DNA of 64,000 nucleotides from Methanomassiliicoccales archaeon (lineage in GTDB: Archaea; Thermoplasmatota; Thermoplasmata; Methanomassiliicoccales; UBA472), in the NCBI GenBank assembly GCA_036504055.1, contig DASXVU010000034.1, positions 62,001 to 126,000 of the forward strand, given 5' to 3'. Shown piece by piece: positions 13,185 through 28,000 of the stretch. The notes under the pieces are model-generated. The model was given only the letters and a program-made list of their open reading frames with translations, was not told the origin of the DNA and did no database searches. How positions within the stretch are numbered: position 1 is the first letter of the stretch; the number at the start of each line of letters is the position of its first letter. The position numbers and the translations under genes are program-made.

Positions 13185-13304
13185 TCACCACTCCTGGCCA
13201 ATATCCCGATTCCCTCTAAGATAGGTCGGAGAATATATATCCTTTTTTGGAGGTGTACCGATAATGATATCATCCTCCAGTTCGGCCAGGGTAGGTTTTC
13301 TCAT
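13185..13304 (-). CDS. Possible 39-aa protein coupled to the histidine kinase
   Basis: A 39-codon frame starts with an ATG that overlaps the histidine kinase stop as ATGA. It ends with a TGA 2 bases before the ATG of the 57-aa gene. The peptide is acidic then polar (MRKPTLAELEDDIIIG...). The perfect coupling on both sides argues for a gene. The TATA-like run inside it argues that the region is instead a promoter for the 57-aa gene. No family is recognised. Confidence 0.3.
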   Translation of the reverse strand: MRKPTLAELEDDIIIGTPPKKDIYSPTYLRGNRDIGQEW

Positions 13305-15355
13305 TTCCTGGCCCGATACATGTTCTTCGGGATCCGGATCTCGAACCTGACCCCTTGACCCTGACATCCTTTCTCTGCAATGGTCATGCCGGTTATCGCC
13401 AATATCTCCCTCGTTAGGTACATCCCCAATCCAGTGTTCTTGCCGAACCCCCGCTCGAAAATCCGCGCCTTATCGGAATCGACAATTCCTATCCCGTCGT
13501 CGGAATATACCAGAGCGGCCCCCTGTTCGGACTCGTGGAACTCTATTCCTATTCTGGAAACATGGCCGCCATGCCTTAATGAGTTGTCTATGAGATTATA
13601 GAAGACCCTCCCCACCAGCCGATCGCAGAATATCTTCAGGTCTCCCACCGATGCGCTGGCGGTGATGTTCACCATCTTGAGCTGGTTCAGCGCCTCATCG
13701 AACATGTCACCGACCCGGTACCAGCCAGGGGGCTCGCTGCCCAGGTTCTGGTATGTCTTGGCGAACTCGATCAATGAGTCCATCCGGCGGCATGCCACCT
13801 TTATCTTGGCCAGATGGTCCTTGAGCTTCGACGGGTCCCTCTCCGTGTCGGCCAATTCCACATGACCGTTGATCACCATCAGGTCGTTCCTGATGTCGTG
13901 CCTGGTGATGGTGGAAAGCAGGTTCAGCTTCATGTTGACGGATTGGACCGAGGCGCTGAGACGCTTCATCTCACTGATATCGTTATACTCGGCAAATACC
14001 GCCTCGGCACCCTGGTAATCGACCAATATGGCAGAGGTGAATGCCCAGAAGGTGTTGCCCTCCACGTCCCTCATCATGAGCTCGAAATCTTCCATCCGAC
14101 CCTCTTCGTCGATGGACTTCAGCACCTTCTTCCTCATGCTCGGATCATCATAGAAATCCTGGATCATCATCGTGATGGCTGCTTCCTTGCTTATCTTGAA
14201 ATGATGTTCGGCCCTTCGATTGATGAAGAGGAGCCTCCCGTCATCCTGTCTGGCAATGGTAATCGGGAAAGGTGACGAGTCCAACAGTTCACGGTATCTC
14301 TCCTTGCTCAGCCTAAGCTCGTTCTCGGCCTTCTTTCTCTGGGTGATGTCCCTCAGAAGGATCAGTTTGTTGTCGGGTGACCCAGGATTGGAAAGGCCGA
14401 TCACGGTCGCCTCATAGACCACATCGTCCCCATCATGTATGCCCATCAATTCCTCTACGAAATCGGAGCTGCCTCCCAGATGATCATGGAACCTTGAACA
14501 TGAAGGCATGATCGTCCTCAGTTCCATGCCGACGCCGCCGGTCCTGCTAAGGCCTAGCTTGGCTGCCGAAGCTTTGTTGAAGTCCACCAATCGGCCTTTG
14601 GCGTCCACCACCAAGTACAGGTCGGACATTTTGTCGACCACCTCGGACCGGGCCACCGGTTTGATGTCCAATATGTGAAAGGAGAAGAGTGCCCAAAAGA
14701 ACAGAACACCGGTAACCATCATAGAGCTGGATGCAAGACTGTAACCTGGGATCGGTGTGATGCCAAAGTTGAACATTAGATCGATTGCGATAGGGATCAG
14801 GGTCCCAAGGATCAGGATTGCGGCCTGTCTTGAATAGACGAGCGGAGACCCTTTGATCGTTCCCATGAGGAACGAGACCGTGGCTATCGCCAGCAAATAG
14901 CTGTACAGCACATATATCCAGTACCATGGGCCGGTCGTGAACGTAAGGACGCTGAAGTCACCGACATCACGAACACCGAAATCATAGCGGAACAAGTGGG
15001 TGTAGTCAGAGGTCAGCATCGCGATTATCGTCAAGAACGGTATTACTGAAAGAAGAAGCACGTTCCTCCGGGAGAGCCAGAACGCTTTCCCAGCATAGCT
15101 GGCCGCCATCAGAAGATAGGTCAAGGTGATGAAAGGAAGGAAAAGGAACCGGACCTTTGCGAACAGCACCTTGTCGGACAGGAGACCTGCGTTCAATTCT
15201 AGCCCGTACAGTACTGCCCAGACCAAACCTATCGCGATGGCCGCCCGGAAGTACTTAGCCTCCGGAACATCCTTGAAACGGATGCTGAAAGCGAAGGTCG
15301 CTGCCAGAATCATGGTGGCTATAAGCTGCGGCAACAGGATCGTGCTGATGGCCAT
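13301..15355 (-). CDS. Membrane histidine kinase: 7TM sensor, PAS domains, HisKA, HATPase
   Basis: This is a 684-residue protein. Residues 1-230 contain about seven hydrophobic helices in the pattern of the histidine-kinase N-terminal 7TM domain. Two PAS domains follow (about 240-340 and 350-465). The dimerisation helix has the phospho-acceptor His486 in TRHDIRNDL. The ATPase domain shows the N box NLIDNSLRHGG (587-597), G1 DDGIGI (619-624) and G2 GLGMYLTREI (642-651). It should autophosphorylate and pass phosphate to a response regulator, but none is encoded in the window. The ligand is unknown. It is divergent from the coiled-coil/KaiC-like gene of the pilus region across 285 bases, so a functional link to that region is possible but unproven. 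Confidence 0.9.
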   Translation of the reverse strand: MAISTILLPQLIATMILAATFAFSIRFKDVPEAKYFRAAIAIGLVWAVLYGLELNAGLLSDKVLFAKVRFLFLPFITLTYLLMAASYAGKAFWLSRRNVLLLSVIPFLTIIAMLTSDYTHLFRYDFGVRDVGDFSVLTFTTGPWYWIYVLYSYLLAIATVSFLMGTIKGSPLVYSRQAAILILGTLIPIAIDLMFNFGITPIPGYSLASSSMMVTGVLFFWALFSFHILDIKPVARSEVVDKMSDLYLVVDAKGRLVDFNKASAAKLGLSRTGGVGMELRTIMPSCSRFHDHLGGSSDFVEELMGIHDGDDVVYEATVIGLSNPGSPDNKLILLRDITQRKKAENELRLSKERYRELLDSSPFPITIARQDDGRLLFINRRAEHHFKISKEAAITMMIQDFYDDPSMRKKVLKSIDEEGRMEDFELMMRDVEGNTFWAFTSAILVDYQGAEAVFAEYNDISEMKRLSASVQSVNMKLNLLSTITRHDIRNDLMVINGHVELADTERDPSKLKDHLAKIKVACRRMDSLIEFAKTYQNLGSEPPGWYRVGDMFDEALNQLKMVNITASASVGDLKIFCDRLVGRVFYNLIDNSLRHGGHVSRIGIEFHESEQGAALVYSDDGIGIVDSDKARIFERGFGKNTGLGMYLTREILAITGMTIAEKGCQGQGVRFEIRIPKNMYRARK

Positions 15356-15640: not shown

Positions 15641-17581
15641 ATGGCTTCTAGCAAGAAATTGGACGCCGTCCAACACGAAGTTCGCTTGGACCCAGGGGGG
15701 TCAACCGCTGAGGTCAGCCCCGCTTCTAAGGAAATTGAAGGAGCCGACCTGAGGTCTTGGCTGGAAGGCGGGGATGATTTTCTTGCTTGGCTCGATGAGG
15801 GTGCCGAAGATCCGCATGCAGCCGATAACAAGCAGGCGGCCGCTGTGGAGGCCAGCTCGGAATACGTCGCCGAGCTCAATGAGAAACTGAAGAAATATGA
15901 GGATGAACTGCGCCTGCTGAAGCAGAAACTGGCAGAGGCCTTTTTGGACAATGCCTCGGACCAGACCGGTAAGGATGTCGAGATCGATCTAGGCCGGAAA
16001 TTGCAGGAGCTGATCGAGGCGAAGGACCAGCTGGCGCTTGAGGTCGATCGGCTTCAGAAACTGAACAACGACATAAAGCAACACTTCGAGCAATCGCTCG
16101 TCAACGTCTCAGAGGATAAATCCTCCCTATTGATGAAGGAGATCGAGCTCAAGGAGAAGGAGTCCAAGCTCCTGACCCGGATGAGGGAGCTCGAGCTCAG
16201 GCAACGTGATGCGTCGAGCTACGCTTCCAAAGAGGTGGAGGCCAACCTGGAGGAGCGTTTCCATACCGAGCTCAGGCAGAAGGAGGCCGAATGGAGATAC
16301 AAGGAGCAACAGCTGCAGGGCCGTATCCAGGACATGGAGAAGGAGCTGCTCCGCCTCTCGATGGACCTGAAGCTCAAGGATGACAAACTCAAGTTGTCCA
16401 ACATGGGAAAGCCGGACATAGAGAAGGCAGTGGCCCAGAAGTACGAGGAGATGATGGCCAAGGAGAAGGAAGTTGCCATCATGCAGGGCGAACTGGACCA
16501 GATGAAGATCCAGATACGCGAGAAGGACGACGAGCTGAAGAAGATCAAGGACGTAATCACGTATAAGGAGGATGAGCTCAACCGCCGAGAGGAGGACATG
16601 ATGTATCGGGAGAAGGTCCTCTCCGGAGAGAAGCGCAAGTTCGAGGAGACCCGGAAGGAGCTCTCGGGCACCGACGAGGTGGAGCTCAAGAAGCGCATCG
16701 AGGAGCTCCGGAACGAGGTTCAGAAGAAGGAAGAGGACCTGCGGGCCAAGGAACGTTTCCTCAACGCCAAGGGCGAGGAGATCCGGATGCGCGAGTCCGG
16801 GCTTATCGAGGACGAGATCAAGGCCAGGGAGAAGGACCGGGTCCTGGAGGCCACCCAGGCCAAGGTGAAGACGGGAAATACCCGTTTGGACGACCTGCTG
16901 CTGGGCGGCATACCCTTCGGCTCCAACATCATGGTCCACGGGCCGCCGTTCGTCGGCAAGGAGGTCATGGTCAATTCATTCGTGGCGGAAGGCCTGAAGA
17001 AAGGCATTCCAGCGTTGTGGGTTATCACCGATAAGACCCCCAAGGACATCCGAGAGGAGATGAAGTTCGTATTGTCTGGCTATGATGAGTACGAAAGGAA
17101 GGGACTGGTCCGATACATCGATGCGTTCTCACGTTCGATGGGTGACGAGTCCAAGGACGAGTTCACCACCTACATAGACGAGCCGACCGACCACGAGAAG
17201 ATATCCGAGGCGGTCGAGAACATAACCAAGGCGTTCCGGGAAACCCACGAGTACTATCGCATGGCTTTCCGTTCCATATCCACCCTGATCGCATATTCCG
17301 ATCCGAACACCGCCTTCCGTTTCCTATCGCCGCTGTGCGGCAAGAGGAAGAGGGACAAGGCGGTCTCCATGTTCACCGTCGAGAAGGGAATGCATGGCGA
17401 GCAGGAGATCCAGATGCTCGGCTCGATCATGGACGGCATGATCGATTTCAAGGTCGACCAGCTGAAGACGTTCTTCTCGATCCAGGGTATCAGCGAGGTC
17501 CAATCCCGTGCCTACATCAGGTACACGTCATCGAAGCATGCCCTGCAGATCGGCTCGTTCGCTCTGGATCACATCAGGTAA
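15641..17581 (+). CDS. Long coiled-coil protein with C-terminal KaiC/FlaH-like RecA domain
   Basis: This 646-residue protein has an acidic N-terminus (SWLEGGDDFLAWLDEGAED). A long, highly charged heptad-rich coiled coil follows, from about 75 to 400. From about 405 it has a RecA/KaiC-superfamily domain opening with TRLDDLLLGGIPFGSNIMV. The P-loop is GPPFVGKE: the Ser/Thr that should follow the invariant Lys is Glu, so nucleotide hydrolysis is doubtful. KaiC-like proteins of this size act as FlaH in the archaellum motor, where FlaH binds ATP beside the FlaI ATPase and FlaJ. The gene lies just before the pilin and secretion ATPase operon on the same strand. I infer a FlaH-like scaffold or switch whose coiled coil could replace the FlaC/D/E proteins. 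A chemoreceptor-type adaptor is the alternative. Confidence 0.78.
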   Translation: MASSKKLDAVQHEVRLDPGGSTAEVSPASKEIEGADLRSWLEGGDDFLAWLDEGAEDPHAADNKQAAAVEASSEYVAELNEKLKKYEDELRLLKQKLAEAFLDNASDQTGKDVEIDLGRKLQELIEAKDQLALEVDRLQKLNNDIKQHFEQSLVNVSEDKSSLLMKEIELKEKESKLLTRMRELELRQRDASSYASKEVEANLEERFHTELRQKEAEWRYKEQQLQGRIQDMEKELLRLSMDLKLKDDKLKLSNMGKPDIEKAVAQKYEEMMAKEKEVAIMQGELDQMKIQIREKDDELKKIKDVITYKEDELNRREEDMMYREKVLSGEKRKFEETRKELSGTDEVELKKRIEELRNEVQKKEEDLRAKERFLNAKGEEIRMRESGLIEDEIKAREKDRVLEATQAKVKTGNTRLDDLLLGGIPFGSNIMVHGPPFVGKEVMVNSFVAEGLKKGIPALWVITDKTPKDIREEMKFVLSGYDEYERKGLVRYIDAFSRSMGDESKDEFTTYIDEPTDHEKISEAVENITKAFRETHEYYRMAFRSISTLIAYSDPNTAFRFLSPLCGKRKRDKAVSMFTVEKGMHGEQEIQMLGSIMDGMIDFKVDQLKTFFSIQGISEVQSRAYIRYTSSKHALQIGSFALDHIR

Positions 17582-17630: not shown

Positions 17631-18056
17631 CTACGCGACCTCGACCCCGCTGCCCGGCTTTATGCCGCCCTTCTTCTGAACGTTGATATGAGGCAACGGG
17701 AAAGGCGGCGGGAGCTTGATGTCACGGGCGACCAACAGGGCCGTGGGAAGGCAATTTGCGACTACGGTATTGTGCACAACGTTCGCCTCGTCCACCGGCA
17801 TCGATCCATCCTTGGACCATTCCGTCAAGATCTCATTGGCGTTACCATCGCATATGAGCTGGCCTTCGATCTTGATGAAGCCCATCCCGGCGTAGTTGGC
17901 TGTGAACCGGAAGTCCACCGAGATCGTCTCATCAGACACCCTGACCACCTGGGTGATGCTGCTGTTCTGATCGATCCGGATATTGGTCATGCGCTCCCCC
18001 GCCTTGGAGAAACGTTTCGCCTCGATGACGCTCATCTCGAAGGACTTGACCTGCAT
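17631..18056 (-). CDS. Conserved archaeal protein of unknown function (141 aa)
   Basis: From the ATG at 18056 (a GTG at 18068 is possible) the product is 141 residues. It has alternating beta strands (TISVDFRFTANYAGMG, KIEGQLICDG) followed by a helical segment ending LVARDIKLPPPFPLPHINV. This matches a small euryarchaeal protein type I recall as SecB-like in fold: paired strands, then a Pro-rich PPPFPLP hinge. I cannot name it with confidence. There is no signal peptide or metal motif. It converges with the coiled-coil gene 49 bases away, and tRNA-Phe follows upstream on the same strand. Confidence 0.65.
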   Translation of the reverse strand: MQVKSFEMSVIEAKRFSKAGERMTNIRIDQNSSITQVVRVSDETISVDFRFTANYAGMGFIKIEGQLICDGNANEILTEWSKDGSMPVDEANVVHNTVVANCLPTALLVARDIKLPPPFPLPHINVQKKGGIKPGSGVEVA

Positions 18057-18126
18057 AATCACGTGCACCCTATCGGTGCAAGCGATATCAAACTTTGTTA
18101 TGCTTCCATAGGATAAGGATAAGAAG

Positions 18127-18199
18127 TGCCGCAGGCCGGGCTCGAACCAGCGACTTCAAGGTCTTCAGCCTTGCACTCTCCCAGCTGAGTTACTGCGGC
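18127..18199 (-). tRNA. tRNA-Phe (GAA)
   Basis: Read on the minus strand, the 73-base gene has a perfect acceptor stem GCCGCAG/CTGCGGC with discriminator A. It has a D arm with the usual AGCTGGGAGAG loop, an anticodon loop CTGAAGA giving GAA, and a T arm with GGTTCGAGCC. CCA is not encoded and no intron is present. Confidence 0.95.
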
Positions 18200-18427: not shown

Positions 18428-19459
18428 ATGGTCAAAGTTGCCTTTAGAAAAAGGATTCTGAGCAAGTCGAGCCGAGCTCGATGCATGCGCAGGGATGAGG
18501 AGGGAGTAGCCTCGGTGATCGGGACGATCATGGCCTTGCTGATATTCCTGACCTTCATGTCCATGTTCGTTAACACCTACATCCCGATCTGGATGAAGGA
18601 GAACGAACGGCTGCACATGAACGAGGCCCAAAGCCAGATGGGAGAGGTCAAGGGCAAGATCGACAACCTAATCGTCAACACGCTCAACACTCTGATCGTC
18701 AATAAACAGGTCACCGGGGCCAGCTCGATCAATACCTACGAACCGATCACCATGGGAGCGGACGGCATTCCTCTGTTCGCCTCTGCCACCGCTGGTGCGA
18801 TCATTCTGAGACCGGTCGGGACCAGCTCCACCAGCGCTAACGTCCAGTTCAACTACACATCCAACAATCAAAGGATACCCATCAACGAAATGGGCGGTGG
18901 AAAGCTGGAGTTCTACGCGCCTAACCGGTATTACGTCGGCCAGTGGCTGGCGTACGAGAACGGCGCCCTGATCGTGAAGCAGGACGTGGGCGAGGCGATG
19001 AAGGCCTCACCCTCTCTGGAGATAACCAAGTCGGGCAACAGTTTCAACGTGATCTTCACCCAGATCGACATCTACGGGACCAACTCCACCATGGTCGGGA
19101 CCGGTGTGGCCGGTGTCAACATAAACCTCATCTACCTGGACATGCAAACGTATACCCCCCATTGGGGCTCCGATGCGAACCAAAACTCTACCGTATACAA
19201 GTTCAATACGGTATACAACGGGTCGCTCATGAACTTCTTGAAGACGACCTTGAAGGCAGCCGATCCGCTCGCCAACCTCAGCCTACCCGTTAAGATCGGG
19301 AGCACTACCACGTTCACCTTTAAGAACGGAGTCACCAATGAAGCGATACTTTCGGACACGCTCTTGGCGGACAAGTCCCATATGGTCACCCTTCAGGTTA
19401 TTAACACGGGAACGCTGACGCTCAGCCGTGCCTCCGTCCAGGTCGAAATAAGTGTTTAA
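18428..19459 (+). CDS. Type IV pilin-like / archaellin-like secreted protein (343 aa)
   Basis: A basic N-terminus (KKRILSKSSRARCMRRDEEG) is followed by a hydrophobic segment ASVIGTIMALLIFLTFMSMF. This matches the class III signal peptide and N-terminal helix of archaeal type IV pilins, with cleavage expected near Gly-Val before ASVIG. The remaining 300 residues are rich in Thr, Ser and Asn with several N-glycosylation sequons (NST, NGS, NLS), as in extracellular filament subunits. It is the only pilin-like gene in the window and is longer than most pilins, so it could be a minor or anchoring subunit. No prepilin peptidase is nearby. It leads the operon with two ATPases and two membrane platform proteins (12-base gap to the first). 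Confidence 0.78.
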   Translation: MVKVAFRKRILSKSSRARCMRRDEEGVASVIGTIMALLIFLTFMSMFVNTYIPIWMKENERLHMNEAQSQMGEVKGKIDNLIVNTLNTLIVNKQVTGASSINTYEPITMGADGIPLFASATAGAIILRPVGTSSTSANVQFNYTSNNQRIPINEMGGGKLEFYAPNRYYVGQWLAYENGALIVKQDVGEAMKASPSLEITKSGNSFNVIFTQIDIYGTNSTMVGTGVAGVNINLIYLDMQTYTPHWGSDANQNSTVYKFNTVYNGSLMNFLKTTLKAADPLANLSLPVKIGSTTTFTFKNGVTNEAILSDTLLADKSHMVTLQVINTGTLTLSRASVQVEISV

Positions 19460-19471
19460 TGAGGTTCCAGA

Positions 19472-21196
19472 ATGACAACTGAAGCAGATCCGATGGCAGG
19501 CGGCAACGGGAGGCTGGAGCCGCAGTCAAAGGTGAGCACCATGGAGAGGGCCAAGGAGAGCTACATGCGCTTCCTTAAGAAGGTGGCCCCCAACCGGGGG
19601 ATCAAGGTCATGCTCTCGGCCAAGGTAGTGGAACAGAAGCGCCTCCAGAAGGGCTCCCATGTCACCGATATCCCGGAGATCAAGAACCCCAACATCGAGG
19701 TCCTGGAAACATATGCGGTGAAGGAACCTTACAGCTATGTGCGGATCACGTTCAACAATGAGAACAGTGAATACCTGTATGAGGCGATCGAGCCTGAACT
19801 GAACAAGGAGGAAAAGGACCTCCTTGCCCTGGTCAAGGACACCCTGCAACGCACCCTTGGCTACGAGTGGGAGAAGCTCACCTCGCTTGACAAGGAGGAA
19901 TATCTGCGGGAGAGCGTGGACTCGTTCGTCCAGACCCGGGGGATCAAGATCGAACCGATCACCAAGAAGAAGCTCGGTTACTATATCATCCGTGACTTCG
20001 TCGGTCACGGGGTCATCGACGTCATGATGAGTGACGACGACATCGAGGATATCTCCTGTGACGGTTACAACATCCCCATCTTCGTCTCGCACCGGAAGTA
20101 CGAGTCCGTTCGTTCAAACATCATATTCGACAACGAGGACGCCCTGAACAATTTCGTCGTCACCCTGTCACAGAGGAGCGGGAAGCAGATCTCCGTGTCC
20201 AGCCCCATCCTTGACGGAACCACCATCGAGGGCCACCGGGTCCAGGCGACCTATTCGCGTGAGGTGACGACGCGCGGTTCTACATTCACCATCAGGCGGT
20301 TCAAGCACCGCCCGTTCACACCGGTCGACCTGCTGAAGTACAAGACCGTCTCCCCGGAGATGATGGCGTACCTGTGGCTGGGGGTCGAGAACGGCGAATC
20401 GATGATCCTGTGCGGCGGCACGGCGTCCGGCAAGACGTCGGCGCTGAACTCTCTGGCCCTCTTCATCCCGCCAGGCGCCAAGATAGTGACGATGGAGGAC
20501 ACCAGGGAGATCAACCTTCCCCACGATAACTGGATACCGGGCATGACCCGTACCGGTGTGGGGGAGAAGGACAAGGATGGCAAGTCCGCCGGCGAGATCG
20601 ACATGTTCGACCTGGTCCGTGCAGCGCTGAGACAGCGTCCGAACTACATCATCGTCGGAGAGGTCAGGGGAAAGGAGACGTACATAATGTTCCAGGCGAT
20701 GGCGACGGGACACTCCACCTACTCCACCATGCACGCCGATTCGGTGAAGTCCATGGTCAACAGGCTGGAGAACCCGCCCATCAACTGCCCCAGGATATTG
20801 CTGACCGCGTTGCGCAACGTGCTCATCCAGGCACAGGTCCGGGTGGGCAACGACCTTGTCCGTCGCATGAAGCAGGTCATCGAGATCGTCGGTTTCGAAC
20901 CGGAAACGAACGAGCTCATCACCAACACCGTCTATGAATGGGACCAGGCAACGGACCGGTTCATCTACAAGGGCCATTCGTTCCTTTTCGACAAGATCAT
21001 GGAGATGAAGTCGCTCACCCATGATGAGATGATGACCGAGTTCCAGAGGCGGATCGAGATCATCAATTATATGGTGTTCAAGGACATGACCGACTACCGC
21101 AAGATCTGGTCCATCACCAATGCCTATTACAAGGACCCCGAGAAGACGCTCACTAAGGTAAGGAAGGAGACCGAGGAGGGAAAGAATGTCGCCTGA
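19472..21196 (+). CDS. Type II/IV secretion ATPase, VirB11/TadA/FlaI family (first copy)
   Basis: This 574-residue protein has an N-terminal domain of about 290 residues typical of archaeal pilus ATPases. The Walker A motif is GGTASGKTS (315-323). The Asp box is MEDTREINLP (341-350), Walker B lies in YIIVGEVRGKE, and the His box is TYSTMHADS. These hexameric ATPases sit under the membrane and drive filament subunit insertion. It lies 12 bases after the pilin and overlaps the next gene by 11 bases. A second ATPase of the same length lies at 23155, so the operon carries a duplicated motor. The catalytic residues appear intact in both. Confidence 0.92.
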   Translation: MTTEADPMAGGNGRLEPQSKVSTMERAKESYMRFLKKVAPNRGIKVMLSAKVVEQKRLQKGSHVTDIPEIKNPNIEVLETYAVKEPYSYVRITFNNENSEYLYEAIEPELNKEEKDLLALVKDTLQRTLGYEWEKLTSLDKEEYLRESVDSFVQTRGIKIEPITKKKLGYYIIRDFVGHGVIDVMMSDDDIEDISCDGYNIPIFVSHRKYESVRSNIIFDNEDALNNFVVTLSQRSGKQISVSSPILDGTTIEGHRVQATYSREVTTRGSTFTIRRFKHRPFTPVDLLKYKTVSPEMMAYLWLGVENGESMILCGGTASGKTSALNSLALFIPPGAKIVTMEDTREINLPHDNWIPGMTRTGVGEKDKDGKSAGEIDMFDLVRAALRQRPNYIIVGEVRGKETYIMFQAMATGHSTYSTMHADSVKSMVNRLENPPINCPRILLTALRNVLIQAQVRVGNDLVRRMKQVIEIVGFEPETNELITNTVYEWDQATDRFIYKGHSFLFDKIMEMKSLTHDEMMTEFQRRIEIINYMVFKDMTDYRKIWSITNAYYKDPEKTLTKVRKETEEGKNVA

Positions 21197-22226
21197 AGTC
21201 TCAGATCTGTTCTCTAAGGTGGATTCCAGCAAGAGCACCTACATGAAGACCAAGAAGATTGGGGAGCACAAGAAGGAACTGGGACCGCGGGTGATCAGAC
21301 TGCCCGAGGGCGTCGTGCCGGACTATGTCAAGCTCACCAAGTACCAGGAATTCTGCTGGAGGACGATCGGAAAGATCGTGCGTCTCCGGGCCAAGCCCAA
21401 TCCCAAGCAGGAGTCATTGCTCCTACAGGCGCACATGCGCATGAGGCAGGAGGAGTTCGTCGCCTACGTATGGATGACGACCCTGCTGGTCGCCATCATA
21501 ACAATACTGATCAGCGTGTTCTTCGGGGCGGTATTCATAGCCGTGCTGAACATCAGCCCGGCCCTGACCATATTCTTCTCCGTGATGGTGGTGGTGATCC
21601 CCACCCTCATGACCTATGTGATCGTCAACAGCACTCCGGGTTCCAAGGCCAAGGCCCGAAAGCGCGACATCGACAAGCGCATCGGTCCGGCGATGTCGTT
21701 CATCTCCGCAATGGCCTCGGCCGACGTGAACATCGACGTCATCTTCAAGGAAATGTCCCGCCAGCCGATATACGGGGAGATCCAGAAAGAATCAGAATGG
21801 ATCACCAGGGACACGGAGCTTTTGGGCATCGATATCCTGACCGCCATCGGCAAGGCCGCACAACGCACGCCCTCGCAACGATTCCAGGAATTCCTTCAGG
21901 GGGTGGTGACCACCTCCACCTCCGGCGGACAGCTAAAGCCATATTTCCTGCAGAAGGCGGAGCAGTTCGAGAAGGAGCACAAGTTGGAGATCAGGGCCCA
22001 GCTGGAGAGCCTGGGACTGATGGCCGAATCGTTCGTCACCGTGGTCGTCGCATTCCCGCTTTTCCTGATCGTCATCATGGCCATCATGGCCATCGTGCCA
22101 GGCGGCGGGGGAAGTGCCGGGACCACCATAATGCTGCTCTACGCGGTGGTAGGGCTGATGGTGCCGGTATCCCAGTTCGGATTCATCTTCTTCATATGGA
22201 ACTCGACCAAGGAGTCGACAATGTGA
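21186..22226 (+). CDS. Type II secretion F-family membrane platform protein (TadC/FlaJ-like, first)
   Basis: This is a 346-residue protein. Two hydrophobic helices lie at about 93-140 and at least two more near 275-340, with the conserved cytoplasmic helical domain between (PAMSFISAMASADVNIDVIFKEM...). This is the T2SSF repeat layout of TadB/TadC and of one half of FlaJ. The protein anchors the pilus base and couples to the ATPase. A gagggaaag ribosome-binding site just before the ATG supports the start inside the previous gene. The cytoplasmic extension of about 90 residues before the first helix is long. It works with the next gene as a split platform. Confidence 0.88.
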   Translation: MSPEVSDLFSKVDSSKSTYMKTKKIGEHKKELGPRVIRLPEGVVPDYVKLTKYQEFCWRTIGKIVRLRAKPNPKQESLLLQAHMRMRQEEFVAYVWMTTLLVAIITILISVFFGAVFIAVLNISPALTIFFSVMVVVIPTLMTYVIVNSTPGSKAKARKRDIDKRIGPAMSFISAMASADVNIDVIFKEMSRQPIYGEIQKESEWITRDTELLGIDILTAIGKAAQRTPSQRFQEFLQGVVTTSTSGGQLKPYFLQKAEQFEKEHKLEIRAQLESLGLMAESFVTVVVAFPLFLIVIMAIMAIVPGGGGSAGTTIMLLYAVVGLMVPVSQFGFIFFIWNSTKESTM

Positions 22227-22235
22227 GGTGCTCCA

Positions 22236-23153
22236 ATGGCCACTGAAAAGAACCTGGATATAATGGACCTGAAGCAGCTCAAGAACGATAAGAGCGACCT
22301 CACCAAGACCATGCTGATCATCGGCATCGTCGTAGGCGTGATGTTCTTCCTCATCGGATTCCTGGACGCCATCGGCGGGCTGGAAACGCCATTGAACTGG
22401 ATCGACTATGTGGCGCTGGGCCTGATGGGCGTGTCCGGACCATACGGTTTCTACACCACCTACAGGCACAAGAAGGTCAAGAACATCGAGGCACGCCTTC
22501 CGGACTTCCTCAGGGATGTCGCCGAGGCAGGCCGTTTCGGAATGACCCTGGCGGAGGCGATCAAGGTCTCATCCCGAGGCAGGTATGGGCCGCTCACCCC
22601 GGAGATCCAGCGCATGGCCGCCCAGATCGAATGGGGTGTTCCGGCCGCCGAAGCTCTTAAACTGTTCGCGGAACGGGTCAACACGCCGTTGGTCAACCGT
22701 ATGATATCGATCATCATCAAGGCCAACGACGCGGGCGGCAGCGTTGCCGATGTCCTCACCATGGTCGCGCACGACTCTCGCGAGACCATGCTCGACCAGA
22801 GCGAGCGCAGCCTGGAGATGTCGACCTACACCGTCGTCATATACGTGGCGTTCGCGGTGTTCCTGGCCACCATCTTCATCCTGAACGCCACCTTCCTTCC
22901 GAAGATGGCGGAGGCCGGAGCGCAAGTGGCTGCGGGAGCGGAGGCGGCCGGCATCACGAACATGCCCGCCACCATCAAGACCGAGATCATCCCTCAGATC
23001 CAATTGATATTCGTCATATCGGTCGTCATCCACGCCTTCGGGGACGGCATACTGGCGGGCGTGCTGCAAGACGGCCGCATCGCCAATGGGCTGAGGCATT
23101 CCTTCATCATGCTGCTGCTCGGCCTGCTCGGAACCAAGTTGGGGGGTACCTGA
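22236..23153 (+). CDS. Type II secretion F-family membrane platform protein (TadB-like, second)
   Basis: This 305-residue protein has two helices near 25-75 (MLIIGIVVGVMFFLIGFLD and YVALGLMGVSG). A T2SSF cytoplasmic domain follows (LPDFLRDVAEAGRFGMTLAEA... ANDAGGSVADVL), then two or three C-terminal helices. The domain is the classic F-type motif. It starts 9 bases after the first platform gene and ends 1 base before the second ATPase, so translation is coupled. Together the pair corresponds to the two halves of an archaellum FlaJ or to TadB plus TadC. Confidence 0.88.
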   Translation: MATEKNLDIMDLKQLKNDKSDLTKTMLIIGIVVGVMFFLIGFLDAIGGLETPLNWIDYVALGLMGVSGPYGFYTTYRHKKVKNIEARLPDFLRDVAEAGRFGMTLAEAIKVSSRGRYGPLTPEIQRMAAQIEWGVPAAEALKLFAERVNTPLVNRMISIIIKANDAGGSVADVLTMVAHDSRETMLDQSERSLEMSTYTVVIYVAFAVFLATIFILNATFLPKMAEAGAQVAAGAEAAGITNMPATIKTEIIPQIQLIFVISVVIHAFGDGILAGVLQDGRIANGLRHSFIMLLLGLLGTKLGGT

Positions 23154-23154
23154 G

Positions 23155-24879
23155 ATGGAAGCTTCAAAAGAACCGATGGCTGAGATCGATGCGGTCCTGA
23201 AGGGGGATCACGAGCCCGCGGTCAAGATGACCGCCATGCAGGGGTTCAACAGTAAGTACCTCGGGTTCCTGCTGAAGGTGAAGGGCCGGCCCATGAAGGT
23301 CATGCTCCCTTCCGGAAAGATACAGCCTGAGCTCGACTCGGAGGTCATCACCGAGGTGCCGAAGATAGCGGATGTCAACGTGGACGAGGTCGAGGTGACC
23401 CCCGTTTTCAAGCCATATTCGTTCGTGCGGATCAAGTTCGACAATACTTCCTCCGAATACATCTATGAGGTCATAGAGCCGCACCTCACTGAGGACGAGA
23501 CCTACCTGCTGGATATGCTGAAGTCCTCCCTCATCGTCACGCTCAACCTGCCGGTCAGGAAGACGGGCAAGGAGAAGATGGACATACTGCGCAAGGCGAC
23601 CGACGAGCTCCTCAGGATCTTCGACGTCAGCCCGAATGCGCTGTCCAAGGAACGCATATTGTACTACCTGCGGCGGGACTTCATCGGTTACGGAGCGATA
23701 GACGTGATGATGCTCGACCCGAACGTAGAGGATTGTTCCTGCGACGGCGTCAACATCCCGCTCTACATATTCCACCGTAAATACGGTTCGATCAAGTCCA
23801 ACGTCAAGTTCGAGAAGGAGCTGGAACTGGACTCGTTCGTGGTCTGGCTGGCCCAAAAGTGCGGAAAGCACATCTCGGTCGCCAGCCCGATGCTGGACGC
23901 CACGATCCCGGACGGGAGCAGGCTCAACGCGACGCTGGGCATGCACGTCACCAAGAGGGGATCGTCCTTCACCATCAGGCGGTTCAAGGAGAATCCGTTC
24001 ACGCCCATCGACCTGCTCAAGTTCAAGACCATGAGCACGGAGATGATGGCCTATCTTTGGATATCCACCGAGTTCGGTTCGTCCATGCTGGTCTGCGGCG
24101 GTACCGCTTCCGGCAAGACGACCACCCTGAACGCGGTGCTGCTGTTCATTCCGCCGCAGAAGAAGATCATCAGCATTGAGGACACCAGGGAACTGAACCT
24201 GCCCCACGAGAACTGGATACCTGGACTGACCAGGGAAGGTTTCGGTGGAAAGAAGATGAACAGCACCGGATCGGTGGACATGTTCGACCTGCTGACCGCG
24301 GCGCTGAGGCAGCGTCCAGATTACCTGATGGTCGGTGAGGTGAGAGGCAAGGAAGCATACGTCGTCTTCCAGGCCATGGCCACCGGCAAGACGTCCTATT
24401 CCACGTTCCACGCAGAGGACGTCCAGGCGATGGTGCACAGGATGGAGAACGACCCGATCAACCTGCCCAGGGCGTTGATGACCGCACTGGACATCGTCAT
24501 GCTGCAGGCCCAGGTAAAGGTCGGCACGAAGATGACCAGGAGGGTCAAGTCCCTGACCGAGATCGTCGGCATGGACTCGGAGACCGGGGAACTGATCACC
24601 AACGCGGTGTTCAGCTGGAACCCGGCGGACGACACCTTCAACTTTTCCGGTCATTCGTACATCTTCGAGAAGGTGAGGACCATCAAGTCCTGGTCCCCCA
24701 GGGAGATGGAGCGTGAGGTGAAGCGCCGGGTCGAGATCCTTGAGTACATGAAGAAGATCGGCGTGGACAACTACAAACAGGTGGCCAGGATTATCTCGGC
24801 ATACTACAAGAACCCGGAGCGCGCCATGAAGGAGATCCGGGAGAAGATGACCGCCACACAGCTGCCCCCTCCCCAGTGA
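23155..24879 (+). CDS. Type II/IV secretion ATPase (second copy)
   Basis: This 574-residue protein is paralogous to the ATPase at 19472 along its whole length, with the same domain order: N-terminal region, Walker A GGTASGKTT near 314-322, Asp box IEDTRELNLP, GEVRGKE and the His box SYSTFHAED. The His box and the linker after the Asp box differ from the first copy, as expected for specialised motors rather than a recent duplicate. Two ATPases on the same platform suggest either different partners or opposing activities. The stop codon lies inside the loop of a strong terminator. Confidence 0.92.
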   Translation: MEASKEPMAEIDAVLKGDHEPAVKMTAMQGFNSKYLGFLLKVKGRPMKVMLPSGKIQPELDSEVITEVPKIADVNVDEVEVTPVFKPYSFVRIKFDNTSSEYIYEVIEPHLTEDETYLLDMLKSSLIVTLNLPVRKTGKEKMDILRKATDELLRIFDVSPNALSKERILYYLRRDFIGYGAIDVMMLDPNVEDCSCDGVNIPLYIFHRKYGSIKSNVKFEKELELDSFVVWLAQKCGKHISVASPMLDATIPDGSRLNATLGMHVTKRGSSFTIRRFKENPFTPIDLLKFKTMSTEMMAYLWISTEFGSSMLVCGGTASGKTTTLNAVLLFIPPQKKIISIEDTRELNLPHENWIPGLTREGFGGKKMNSTGSVDMFDLLTAALRQRPDYLMVGEVRGKEAYVVFQAMATGKTSYSTFHAEDVQAMVHRMENDPINLPRALMTALDIVMLQAQVKVGTKMTRRVKSLTEIVGMDSETGELITNAVFSWNPADDTFNFSGHSYIFEKVRTIKSWSPREMEREVKRRVEILEYMKKIGVDNYKQVARIISAYYKNPERAMKEIREKMTATQLPPPQ

Positions 24880-25075: not shown

Positions 25076-28000
25076 TCACTCCTTCTTTTGCTCCTCTGGC
25101 ACCGATTCAGGCGAGTGCTCTGTCTCAGGGTTGTCCTTCACTACCTTCTTGGGGACCATCTTGCGGTCCGATGACCGCTTGACGATCTTACGGAAGGGCT
25201 TGGCCTGTTCTCCAGACTCTGCCGCCGATGCCATTTCCAGAGCCTTGTCGAACACGGTGCCGCACTTGGAGCATATGGTCGCGCCCTTCGGGTTGAGGGT
25301 GCCGCATGTCGGGCAGGGCAGGGAGCTTGCCTTTCGGTCCTCCTCCTTCTTGGCCACCCAGGCCTCAAAGGTCACATACGCCGGCTCGGTCTTGAGCCAG
25401 TCCATGAACTTGTCCTCGGAGTACTTCTTCCCCAGGGCGGCCTTGGCCTGTTCCCTGAACCCGTTGATGTACTCGTCGTACTGCCTCCTCATGGAGGACA
25501 TGTAGTCGTCGGTGGATATCTCCTCAACCGGCTCGGTCATGAACTTCGCTCCACATTCGGGGCATTCCTTCGACCTGGACGGTATCCAGGTACCGCACTC
25601 GGAGCACTTTGCGGTATCCGCCTCGAACTCGGTGCCGCAGCGTGGGCAGCGCTTCGAGCTCTCCGGGATCAGCGCGCCGCATTCGCCGCACTCCACCATC
25701 TTGCCCAATCCATACTTGTACAGATAGACCGAGAAGACCAGGATGACCGCAATCACTATGATCGCGATGATCGCGAACACCCAGAGCGGGACACCCTGTG
25801 CGTTGAATATCTTCATGACGTTGATCGGGACCGAATTCGAGTAGACCGCACCTGAGTTCATCGTCACGCTCACCGAGTGCGAGCCGGACCGGTCCGTCGG
25901 CACGAATACGAAGCTGCTATAGGCCCCGGTGCCGTCGGTCTTGGTCGTGATAGCGTCACCCACTGGCAGACCGGCAGAGTCCAGCAGCCTGATGGTCAAC
26001 GATTGGTTGGCCAGGGCATAGCTGCCGTCCTTGTTGGTGATCATTCCGGACACCGGTATCGATTCCCCCGGTTGGAAGTCTGTCTTGGAACCGACACTGA
26101 TGGTGATCATCGGGTTAGGTATGTTGACCGCGAACGCCCGGCTGTCGATGTTGTTGGTGTAGTTGGATTCCTCGATCACGTGCCTCGAGTTCATCTCCAC
26201 CACCAAAGAATAGGTGCCAGATGTGACGTTCACCACCCACGGGAAGGATATCTGGACCGATGCGCCTCCGGACAGGTCCCGGATCATGCTCATCAGGAGG
26301 TGCTTGTAGTTGTCGCTGTCCTTCACGTATATCTCGAGGACCGCCCCGTTCGCTGCCTTCAGGCCTTCATTGCCCATTACAAATGTTATGTCTATCGTCT
26401 GGCCTTGGACCGCTTGCGACGTCGAGTTACTGCCGGACGACGATTTCACGGACACACCGGCCGGGAACCAGAGGTCAGCCCGGTTGTCCACCACGAGCAG
26501 CGAGCTGGAGATTATGTTGTTCTCATAGGTCATCTCCATGACCGGGGTGTCATTGCCGTGGGTGAAGGGATTTACCTCCACCGTGATCATGCGGCTCTGG
26601 TTACGGCCCGATCCATCGACGGAGGCGGCGATCCAGCCCATCTGTATGTCGGTTGTCGCACCTGCGTTGATGCTCGGGACCACCACATCACCGATCTTCG
26701 TGCCGGTGCTAGCAGTTCCCAGCCAGAAACGGACCAGGAAGTCCGATGCTACGTATTCGCCCGTGTTCATCACCGTCGCGCTAAGCATAACGGAGTCTCC
26801 GATGAACACCTGAGTGACCACCGACCCGGAACTCGACAGCTTGAACTGGAGGTTCGTGGCCACCAGGTCCGGGTAGTTCATGACCTTGACGATGACGCCG
26901 GCAATGTTGTTGCCCTTGGAGGCCTCCAGGAGTGTGTTGTTCTCATCGATCACGACTGTTATGTTATGATCGCCCGGCAACATGTGCTGCCAGGTAGCGA
27001 AGGCCACTCCGGTCTGGCCGCCGCGTATGGCGGGTAAGGTGAAATTGCCGATGGAGATCCTGAGGCCGTGGAACACATCGTAGAAGCGGATCACGGCCGT
27101 CTGGTCCATATCATCTCCGCCATTCACGATGTCCGCCCGGATGGACACCGTGGAGTTGGTCTCGACGATGGCCGGATTGATGGAGATCTGGCCGGGGAGA
27201 ACGCTCAGATCGGGGACACCCTGGACCGATACGGTCGTTTGGTTCCAGTTGTTGCTGCGGTTCAGTTGCGGGATGGCTCCGAACGGGTCGACGGTGACAT
27301 TGAGGGTATGGTTCCCGACCGGATAGACCACGGTCCAGAGGACCGTTATGTTCGAGTGCTCGCCTGGGGCGATCGACGTGATCGTCTGGTCCGCAATTAT
27401 GGCACCGGTGGTCAGGTCCTTGAAGCGGACAAGAACGCTGTAAGCGTTCACCACTCCATTATTTGTTATGTTGGCAATTAGGCCCACCGAAGCGCCCCTG
27501 GCGGGGCTATAATCGGACGCCCAGAAGGGCGGGTCCAGCTCGGGCAAGGCGCCGAGGATGTTCACATTGATCGCGATGTCGCTCTTGGCGATCTCGCTGC
27601 CATTGTCATTGTTGATGAGCCCGTCCGGAGAGACCTGGGTGTAACGTGCGTTGATGGCTCCGGTGCTATCGTATCGGACACCGTGGAACCAGTAGGTGGC
27701 GTTCACCCGGTAGTTGTCATTGAAATGGGATGCGCCATAGCGATTGATCCAATCGGATAGCAGGTTGAACGTGGCCTTACCGTCCGCACCGGTGATGGCG
27801 GTTGCATAGGACATACCGGTCGACCGGTCCAGTTCGACGAACGCTCCGGCTATCCCGTGGACCAGTGTCCCGTCCATGACCGTCACGGTCAACAGACGGT
27901 AGCTCCAGGCCCTGGCATCGTCCTGGAGGTGAATCGCCGGGATGGATACGCTCGTCAGCACTGCCGTCGCCTGACCCCCGAAGTTGGCTATGCCAGCCTG

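Follow-up and report, generated by a model that had tools for sequence, protein, structure and literature searches.

According to the available portions of the papers cited here and below, the archaellum protein ArlH (FlaH), a member of the KaiC superfamily, does not hydrolyse ATP and interacts with the motor ATPase ArlI (FlaI) in a manner that depends on bound nucleotide (PMC6011876, PMC8978795). FlaH carrying K39A or D126N binds nucleotide and FlaI much more weakly, and those portions report FlaH only from archaellum operons, not from archaeal type IV pilus operons (PMC6011876). KaiC-family ATPases (arCOG01171, arCOG01174 and arCOG01175) and Roadblock/LC7 proteins (arCOG02603) are found in archaeal type IV pilus loci, and one locus of Aciduliprofundum boonei holds two ATPases (Makarova 2016, PMC4858521). 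The CdiP pilus of Cuniculiplasma divulgatum has two motor ATPases, CdiPE1 and CdiPE2, and a platform split into CdiPFa and CdiPFb; the presence of two motor ATPases in such a pilus has been called enigmatic (PMC12448462). Here we describe a KaiC-like protein, which we call pseudo-KaiC, encoded near a pilus locus of this type in a 64,000-nucleotide stretch of a Methanomassiliicoccales genome (GCA_036504055.1, contig DASXVU010000034.1, positions 62,001 to 126,000; hereafter the window). We put the probability at roughly 0.6 that it represents a KaiC-fold pseudo-ATPase family, found widely across one archaeal phylum, that acts as a nucleotide-blind adaptor of CdiP-type type IV pili.

A predicted KaiC fold with a replaced active site

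The gene and its parts lie as follows, in positions of the window:

15641..17581, + strand: open reading frame of 646 amino acids encoding the coiled coil and pseudo-KaiC domain
15851..16840, + strand: coiled coil, residues 71-400 (about 330 residues), poorly conserved in sequence; from composition, periodicity and conservation
16850..17578, + strand: KaiC/RecA-fold domain; from PF06745, an AlphaFold model and PH0284 (Z 28.0)
16940..16963, + strand: degenerate P-loop GPPFVGKE, residues 434-441, Glu441 replacing Ser/Thr; from the sequence
17030..17035, + strand: Asp464-Lys465 where a Glu pair is expected; from alignment to PH0284 (ITDKT against ALEEH)
17270..17272, + strand: Arg544 where the Walker B Asp is expected; from alignment to PH0284 (FRSIST against VDSVTT)

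Three features of an active KaiC ATPase are thus replaced in this protein: the P-loop Ser/Thr, the Walker B Asp and the Glu pair. The Glu pair that follows strand 2 is catalytic in KaiC. A preliminary description, made from the letters alone, had reported the Glu in the P-loop (codon GAG, 16961-16963) and an otherwise intact RecA fold; the first claim was correct and understated the change, and the second holds for the fold and fails for the active site. The AlphaFold model of the domain, built from 58 alignment rows, has a mean predicted local distance difference test (pLDDT) score of 92.8. Its nearest solved structure is PH0284 (Z 28.0, root-mean-square deviation 2.2 over 225 residues; Foldseek was also run), followed by SSO2452 (Z 27.0) and then KaiC (Z about 25-26). 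An intact KaiC fold is therefore predicted with confidence. PF06745 matches the C-terminal part (16850-17578) with E 3.3e-22 and 79.4 bits, and the whole protein with 75.4 bits, against a cut-off of 26.6. The protein also passes the cut-offs of two uncharacterised Pfam families, DUF7504 (PF24336, 49.1 against 27) and DUF7090 (PF23365, 33.7 against 27), with matches that cover part of the KaiC domain. The long coiled coil of the preliminary description is borne out: residues 71-400 contain a single Pro in 330, E/K/R/D/Q make up 53%, and the hydrophobic period of 3.5 residues exceeds that of 198 of 200 shuffles.

We searched for relatives in 61 genomes (that of the window and 60 others) and found a match in 44, strong (E<1e-60) in 41. 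Residues were counted at the best matches of each search and at chosen stretches, a set that leans towards nearer relatives. Across the window's order, 37 distinct sequences (the window's included, two of them partial) all have Lys440, Glu441, Asp464 and Arg544, and 36 have Lys465. Both Glu codons are used at position 441 (GAG in 29, GAA in 8), and a sequencing error or strain-specific mutation, which the preliminary description had allowed for, is refuted. Among 97 distinct sequences from nearer relatives, Lys-Glu is invariant; Arg takes the Walker B place in 85 and other residues in 12; Glu stands at the first place of the pair in 24 and never at the second. Some relatives also lack the second Gly of the P-loop (GPPYSKKE).

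At the level of the class, 149 of 200 genomes have a family match at E 1e-20. The Ser/Thr place is occupied by Glu in 83 of 100 distinct class sequences (otherwise Asp 7, Tyr 6, Phe 2, Gly 1, Arg 1) and by Glu in all 39 further sequences from named genomes, whose record titles include Methanomassiliicoccales, Thermoplasmata, Aciduliprofundum and DHVE2. Together these 139 sequences have Glu 122 times and neither a P-loop Ser/Thr nor a Walker B Asp even once. In a sample of the phylum (class included), 67 of 194 genomes match at E 1e-15. The 35 distinct sequences from outside the class show Glu in 22 and Ser in 1, with the Walker B Asp kept in 17 and Arg at that place in 3. Not one of 174 distinct phylum sequences (minimum 110 bits and 180 residues; nested sequences removed, divergent paralogues kept) has both the P-loop Ser/Thr and the Walker B Asp. 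The P-loop change is thus of wider occurrence, and loss of the Walker B Asp seems to have come later. The class also has forms of 300-330 amino acids, and frames of about 240 amino acids and longer ones occur outside it, so coiled coil and class membership do not coincide.

An alternative is that the site still binds nucleotide and perhaps hydrolyses it at a low rate, Glu441 or Asp464 serving as an atypical Mg2+ ligand, so that the protein would be a nucleotide sensor. The P-loop Lys, kept in 162 of the 174 sequences, and the Walker B Asp kept in about half of those outside the class speak for this. Set against it are the complete lack of that Asp in the class and named-genome sequences, the lost second Gly, and some phylum members in which the P-loop Lys and the Glu have each become Arg, which fits no common nucleotide site. 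We regard a sensor as improbable. With the P-loop Ser/Thr and the Walker B Asp both lost, and the second Gly lost in some relatives, binding of Mg-ATP by the domain is unlikely. A Glu441-Arg544 salt bridge in place of Mg2+ is compatible with most of the nearer sequences; we rejected it as a general rule, given the 12 of 97 without Arg and the scarcity of Arg outside the class.

Two observations concern the edges of the family. A record titled Candidatus Omnitrophota bacterium (L145) holds a member at 63% identity and is perhaps a mislabelled archaeal genome. Class-level paralogues at L255-L259 have frames of about 950-1000 amino acids, the same GKE P-loop, Met or Leu at the Walker B place and no pilus gene nearby.

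The preliminary description had likened the protein to a pseudo-ATPase version of FlaH. Taken as descent, a move of FlaH/ArlH from the archaellum to the pilus system, this draws on the shared superfamily, on weak FlaH-type matches (PRK06067, 44.8 bits; ArlH equivalog model, 23.2 bits) and on two properties of ArlH, its own lack of ATP hydrolysis and its interaction with a motor ATPase (PMC6011876, PMC8978795). The ArlH score is far under its cut-off of 215, and the best solved folds are PH0284 and SSO2452. The window's genome has an ArlH-type protein of its own (G000:C18:18097-18828) with the P-loop GEIGSGRS and a Walker B Asp, beside FlaI- and FlaJ-type genes of archaellum type. In a tree of 43 hand-picked rows, which took in 4 of the 8 KaiC loci tried from that genome, four ArlH proteins (from this genome and three relatives) form their own clade (100/100), and the pseudo-KaiC family with its stand-alone and divergent forms makes up a separate one (100/97). 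We judge descent from ArlH very unlikely. It is possible that pseudo-KaiC works like FlaH, by analogy. As a separate observation, ArlH-type proteins of the order have Arg for the P-loop Lys (GxxGSGRS) in all four loci looked at:

L299:9098-9829, ArlH-type gene with GxxGSGRS
L300:7214-7963, ArlH-type gene with GxxGSGRS
L301:9457-10179, ArlH-type gene with GxxGSGRS
L302:7257-8060, ArlH-type gene with GxxGSGRS

Association with the pilus motor

Pseudo-KaiC and the pilus ATPase tend to be present or absent together. We counted both in the 200 class genomes, taking the family as present at E 1e-20, fragments and paralogues included. With an ATPase cut-off of 1e-100, 142 genomes had both, 7 pseudo-KaiC only, 14 the ATPase only and 37 neither; the corresponding numbers were 144, 5, 17 and 34 at 1e-60, and 128, 21, 10 and 41 at 1e-150. 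The Fisher p for co-occurrence is 9e-22, relatedness ignored. ArlH, sought with one query at E 1e-20, was found in at least 26 of these genomes: 24 among the 149 that have the family, 2 among the 51 that lack it. Among the sampled relatives, 15 of the 16 genomes in f2, a family of the order, lack the gene together with the pilus ATPase, as does G026; any ATPases left in them are distant ones. G054, an outlier in f2, carries the two.

In the window, the genes downstream of pseudo-KaiC are:

17631..18068, - strand: convergent gene for a 145-amino-acid protein with a predicted SecB fold; model pLDDT 85.0
18126..18199, - strand: tRNA-Phe(gaa)
18428..19459, + strand: 343-amino-acid protein, hydrophobic near its N terminus and resembling a pilin by eye only; matches no family
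19472..21196, + strand: motor ATPase 1, type IV pilus/archaellum type (FlaI-type), P-loop GGTASGKT intact; PF00437, E 1.9e-31
21186..22226, + strand: first half of the platform, T2SSF/ArlJ-like; PF00482, ArlJ model positions 5-244 of 555
22236..23153, + strand: second half of the platform, T2SSF/ArlJ-like; PF00482, ArlJ model positions 267-541 of 555
23155..24879, + strand: motor ATPase 2, type IV pilus/archaellum type (FlaI-type), P-loop GGTASGKT intact; PF00437, E 6.8e-35

The stretch 18428-24879 has the make-up of a CdiP-type locus, with two motor ATPases and a platform divided between an N-terminal and a C-terminal gene. The preliminary description had placed pseudo-KaiC at the start of a pilus locus; pilus-type genes are indeed near, but the reading frame at 17631-18068 on the opposite strand and the tRNA gene intervene before the first of them at 18428. 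We considered a locus eligible for an adjacency count when it had at least 4 kb downstream or an ATPase was found, which left 28 of 32 loci from the order and 52 of 80 from named genomes, two sets that share genomes. All 28 eligible order loci, and 29 of the 52 eligible named loci, have ATPase 1 on the same strand no more than 6 kb downstream. Outside the class, 8 of 25 loci have a pilus ATPase no farther than 5 kb away, placed in one of three ways (upstream in 4, downstream in 3 and on the opposite strand in 1).

Replacement of all three catalytic features together with co-occurrence with the pilus motor makes a non-hydrolysing KaiC-like protein tied to the pilus system, as the preliminary description had proposed, a well-supported reading of the sequences. 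The altered protein is real, fixed and widespread. It belongs to a pseudo-ATPase family of known fold with a probable role in the pilus, and apparently an undescribed one: no description of it was found in the available portions of the literature searched.

Several further observations concern the surroundings of the gene. The model of the SecB-like protein matches SecB and SecB-like structures (Z 8.9-10.3), then two uncharacterised proteins (8.2-8.3) and then others from 5.2; its best Foldseek E value is only 3.2e-3, no Pfam or NCBIfam family was found, and a PDB sequence search up to E 5 brought up no SecB. Of 80 named loci, many of them truncated, 47 have a relative of this frame next to the pseudo-KaiC gene. 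Upstream, at 13301-15355 on the - strand, lies a seven-transmembrane histidine kinase with PAS domains that has no match in the relatives' blocks L043-L074. Beyond the pilus genes, which it adjoins, a 1873-amino-acid protein with CARDB repeats and zinc ribbons (25076-30697, - strand) is kept in relatives at lower identity. Deoxyhypusine synthase, tried as a flank marker, matched in 24 of 24 genomes, many matches being distant copies, and was uninformative. Four records titled Methanomassiliicoccus sp. (L111, L116, L119 and L121) contain the family, three of them with pilus ATPases in reach (the L119 locus is short); the available text of Makarova 2016 (PMC4858521) counts Methanomassiliicoccus among archaea without secretion ATPases.

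A GTPase and Roadblock module and the proposed role

Outside the class, a fusion protein of about 390 amino acids, KaiC-like in its N-terminal part and ending in an Arf/Ras-type GTPase, is encoded directly upstream of pseudo-KaiC in 17 of the 25 loci examined, and a Roadblock/LC7 gene precedes the fusion in 16 of these 17. Among the other eight, L332 ends 173 bases upstream of pseudo-KaiC. Pfam was run on seven module proteins from three loci. By eye, the KaiC-like part of the fusion has no P-loop at the expected place (L272 is unclear). The fusion is also found away from the pseudo-KaiC gene, at L328 (a class genome) and L331. The trio is sometimes beside pilus motor genes, and examples are:

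L241:9163-11372, Roadblock/LC7, fusion and pseudo-KaiC genes
L246:181-2436, Roadblock/LC7, fusion and pseudo-KaiC genes
L271:8230-10630, Roadblock/LC7, fusion and pseudo-KaiC genes
other loci with the same trio

Genes at one locus of family f34 were read by eye as a 2-oxoacid:ferredoxin oxidoreductase.

From the computed features, namely the altered site, the predicted fold, its conservation and the genomic link to the pilus, we infer how docking, oligomer formation and control might work. The pseudo-KaiC domain would dock on the ring of the pilus motor ATPase, as ArlH does on ArlI. It would be held there in one fixed state without Mg-ATP, perhaps through a Lys-Glu or Glu-Arg charge pair within the domain. 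The coiled coil could tether the domain or reach another site, and in the window's order it perhaps supplies the control. In other families a nucleotide switch might instead come from the KaiC-like/Ras-type GTPase encoded upstream, acting with the Roadblock/LC7 protein.

Extended to the phylum, this last step would mean that a G-protein module, the Roadblock protein and the fusion, controls pili through a nucleotide-blind KaiC adaptor on the motor ATPases, with the long coiled coil in place of such a neighbour in the window's order. Coiled-coil length and the GTPase neighbour do not divide cleanly between the class and the rest, which counts against such control; we hold it to be rather unlikely.

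A number of findings weigh against a pilus adaptor. The whole block is syntenic in the order, so that adjacency there is weak evidence, and the 25 loci outside the class were chosen among matches. No pilus gene is found nearby in 23 of the 52 eligible named loci, nor at any of the 15 class-level loci L255-L269, and there the link to the pilus therefore rests on co-occurrence. That co-occurrence is itself uncorrected for relatedness, with family f2 contributing many of the joint absences, and it has exceptions in both directions (14 of 200 genomes with the ATPase and without the family, 7 of 200 the reverse), of which some, though not all, are incomplete genomes. A search for the GTPase fusion in the window's order found none: 39 of 61 genomes matched at 1e-4 (best E 1.3e-8), each over the KaiC or the GTPase part only. 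Nor does the 18-kb stretch around the one Roadblock gene of the window's genome hold a GTPase, pilus or family gene. Finally, two genomes of one genus, G035 and G038, which perhaps reflect a single loss, keep the pilus locus and its neighbours without the pseudo-KaiC gene (L235 and L236).

The loci without a pilus gene and the joint absences within one family of the order would also suit a general scaffold for signalling or cell organisation, a coiled coil with a dead KaiC head that is not specific to pili and whose co-occurrence with them reflects shared loss. This is possible, though clearly less probable than a pilus adaptor. Pilus motor genes adjoin the family in differing arrangements outside the class, and ArlH does not show the same co-occurrence pattern; a weaker point is that some pilus proteins have diverged more where the gene was lost.

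We made this last comparison on L235 and L236, which amount to a natural deletion of pseudo-KaiC in an otherwise kept block, by measuring identity to the window's proteins over the best aligned piece only. In G035 and G038 against two congeners that keep the gene, ATPase 1 has 64/63% against 68/70%, the first half of the platform 58/57% against 68/67%, the second half 64/59% against 68/63% and ATPase 2 63/62% against 69/68%. The 343-amino-acid protein is about equal (37/35% against 38/37%), as are four of six flanking genes; the other two are lower (DUF531, 61/61% against 64/65%; FAA hydrolase, 54/54% against 59/59%). L237 (G016) and L238 (G017) end at contig edges and were uninformative. Faster divergence of some pilus proteins after loss of the gene is weakly suggested by these identities.

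Comparison with known systems

The nearest solved relatives, PH0284 and SSO2452 (PF06745, TIGR03877), resemble pseudo-KaiC in fold. TIGR03877 is its best NCBIfam model, at 69.5 bits under a cut-off of 307. PH0284 retains the P-loop Thr, the Walker B Asp and the Glu pair, all of which are replaced in pseudo-KaiC, and pseudo-KaiC carries in addition the coiled coil of about 330 residues. DUF7504 and DUF7090 are resembled over part of the KaiC domain, where pseudo-KaiC passes their cut-offs.

With FlaH/ArlH, pseudo-KaiC shares the KaiC superfamily, a probable lack of hydrolysis and a link to the motor of a type IV filament. It differs in clade and in locus and, set beside the weakened binding of the FlaH mutants (PMC6011876), in that the Walker B Asp is naturally absent. 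Pseudo-KaiC tracks the two-ATPase pilus and is a candidate pilus counterpart of FlaH. Its dead site would help to tell apart two ideas about ArlH, a nucleotide switch and a docking surface.

The locus at 19472-24879 is like that of CdiP in gene make-up, with two ATPases and a split platform. The available text of PMC12448462 describes no KaiC-like partner, KaiC appearing only in the title of a reference. Pseudo-KaiC offers a starting point for explaining the two motor ATPases of such pili. In the available portions of Makarova 2016 (PMC4858521), the KaiC proteins of pilus loci are called ATPases, with neither an inactive family nor a KaiC-like/Ras-GTPase fusion.

Bacterial type IV pili are controlled by MglA and MglB, a Ras-like GTPase and a Roadblock GTPase-activating protein (PMC4316618, PMC9481161). 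The module outside the class is similar in pairing a GTPase with a Roadblock protein tied to type IV pili. It differs in that the archaeal GTPase shares one chain with a KaiC-like domain that lacks a P-loop, with pseudo-KaiC encoded next, and in that the window's order has no such neighbour. If the module does control pili, it would be an archaeal counterpart of MglA/MglB pilus control in which the clock-type KaiC fold has been reused as an inert docking ring.

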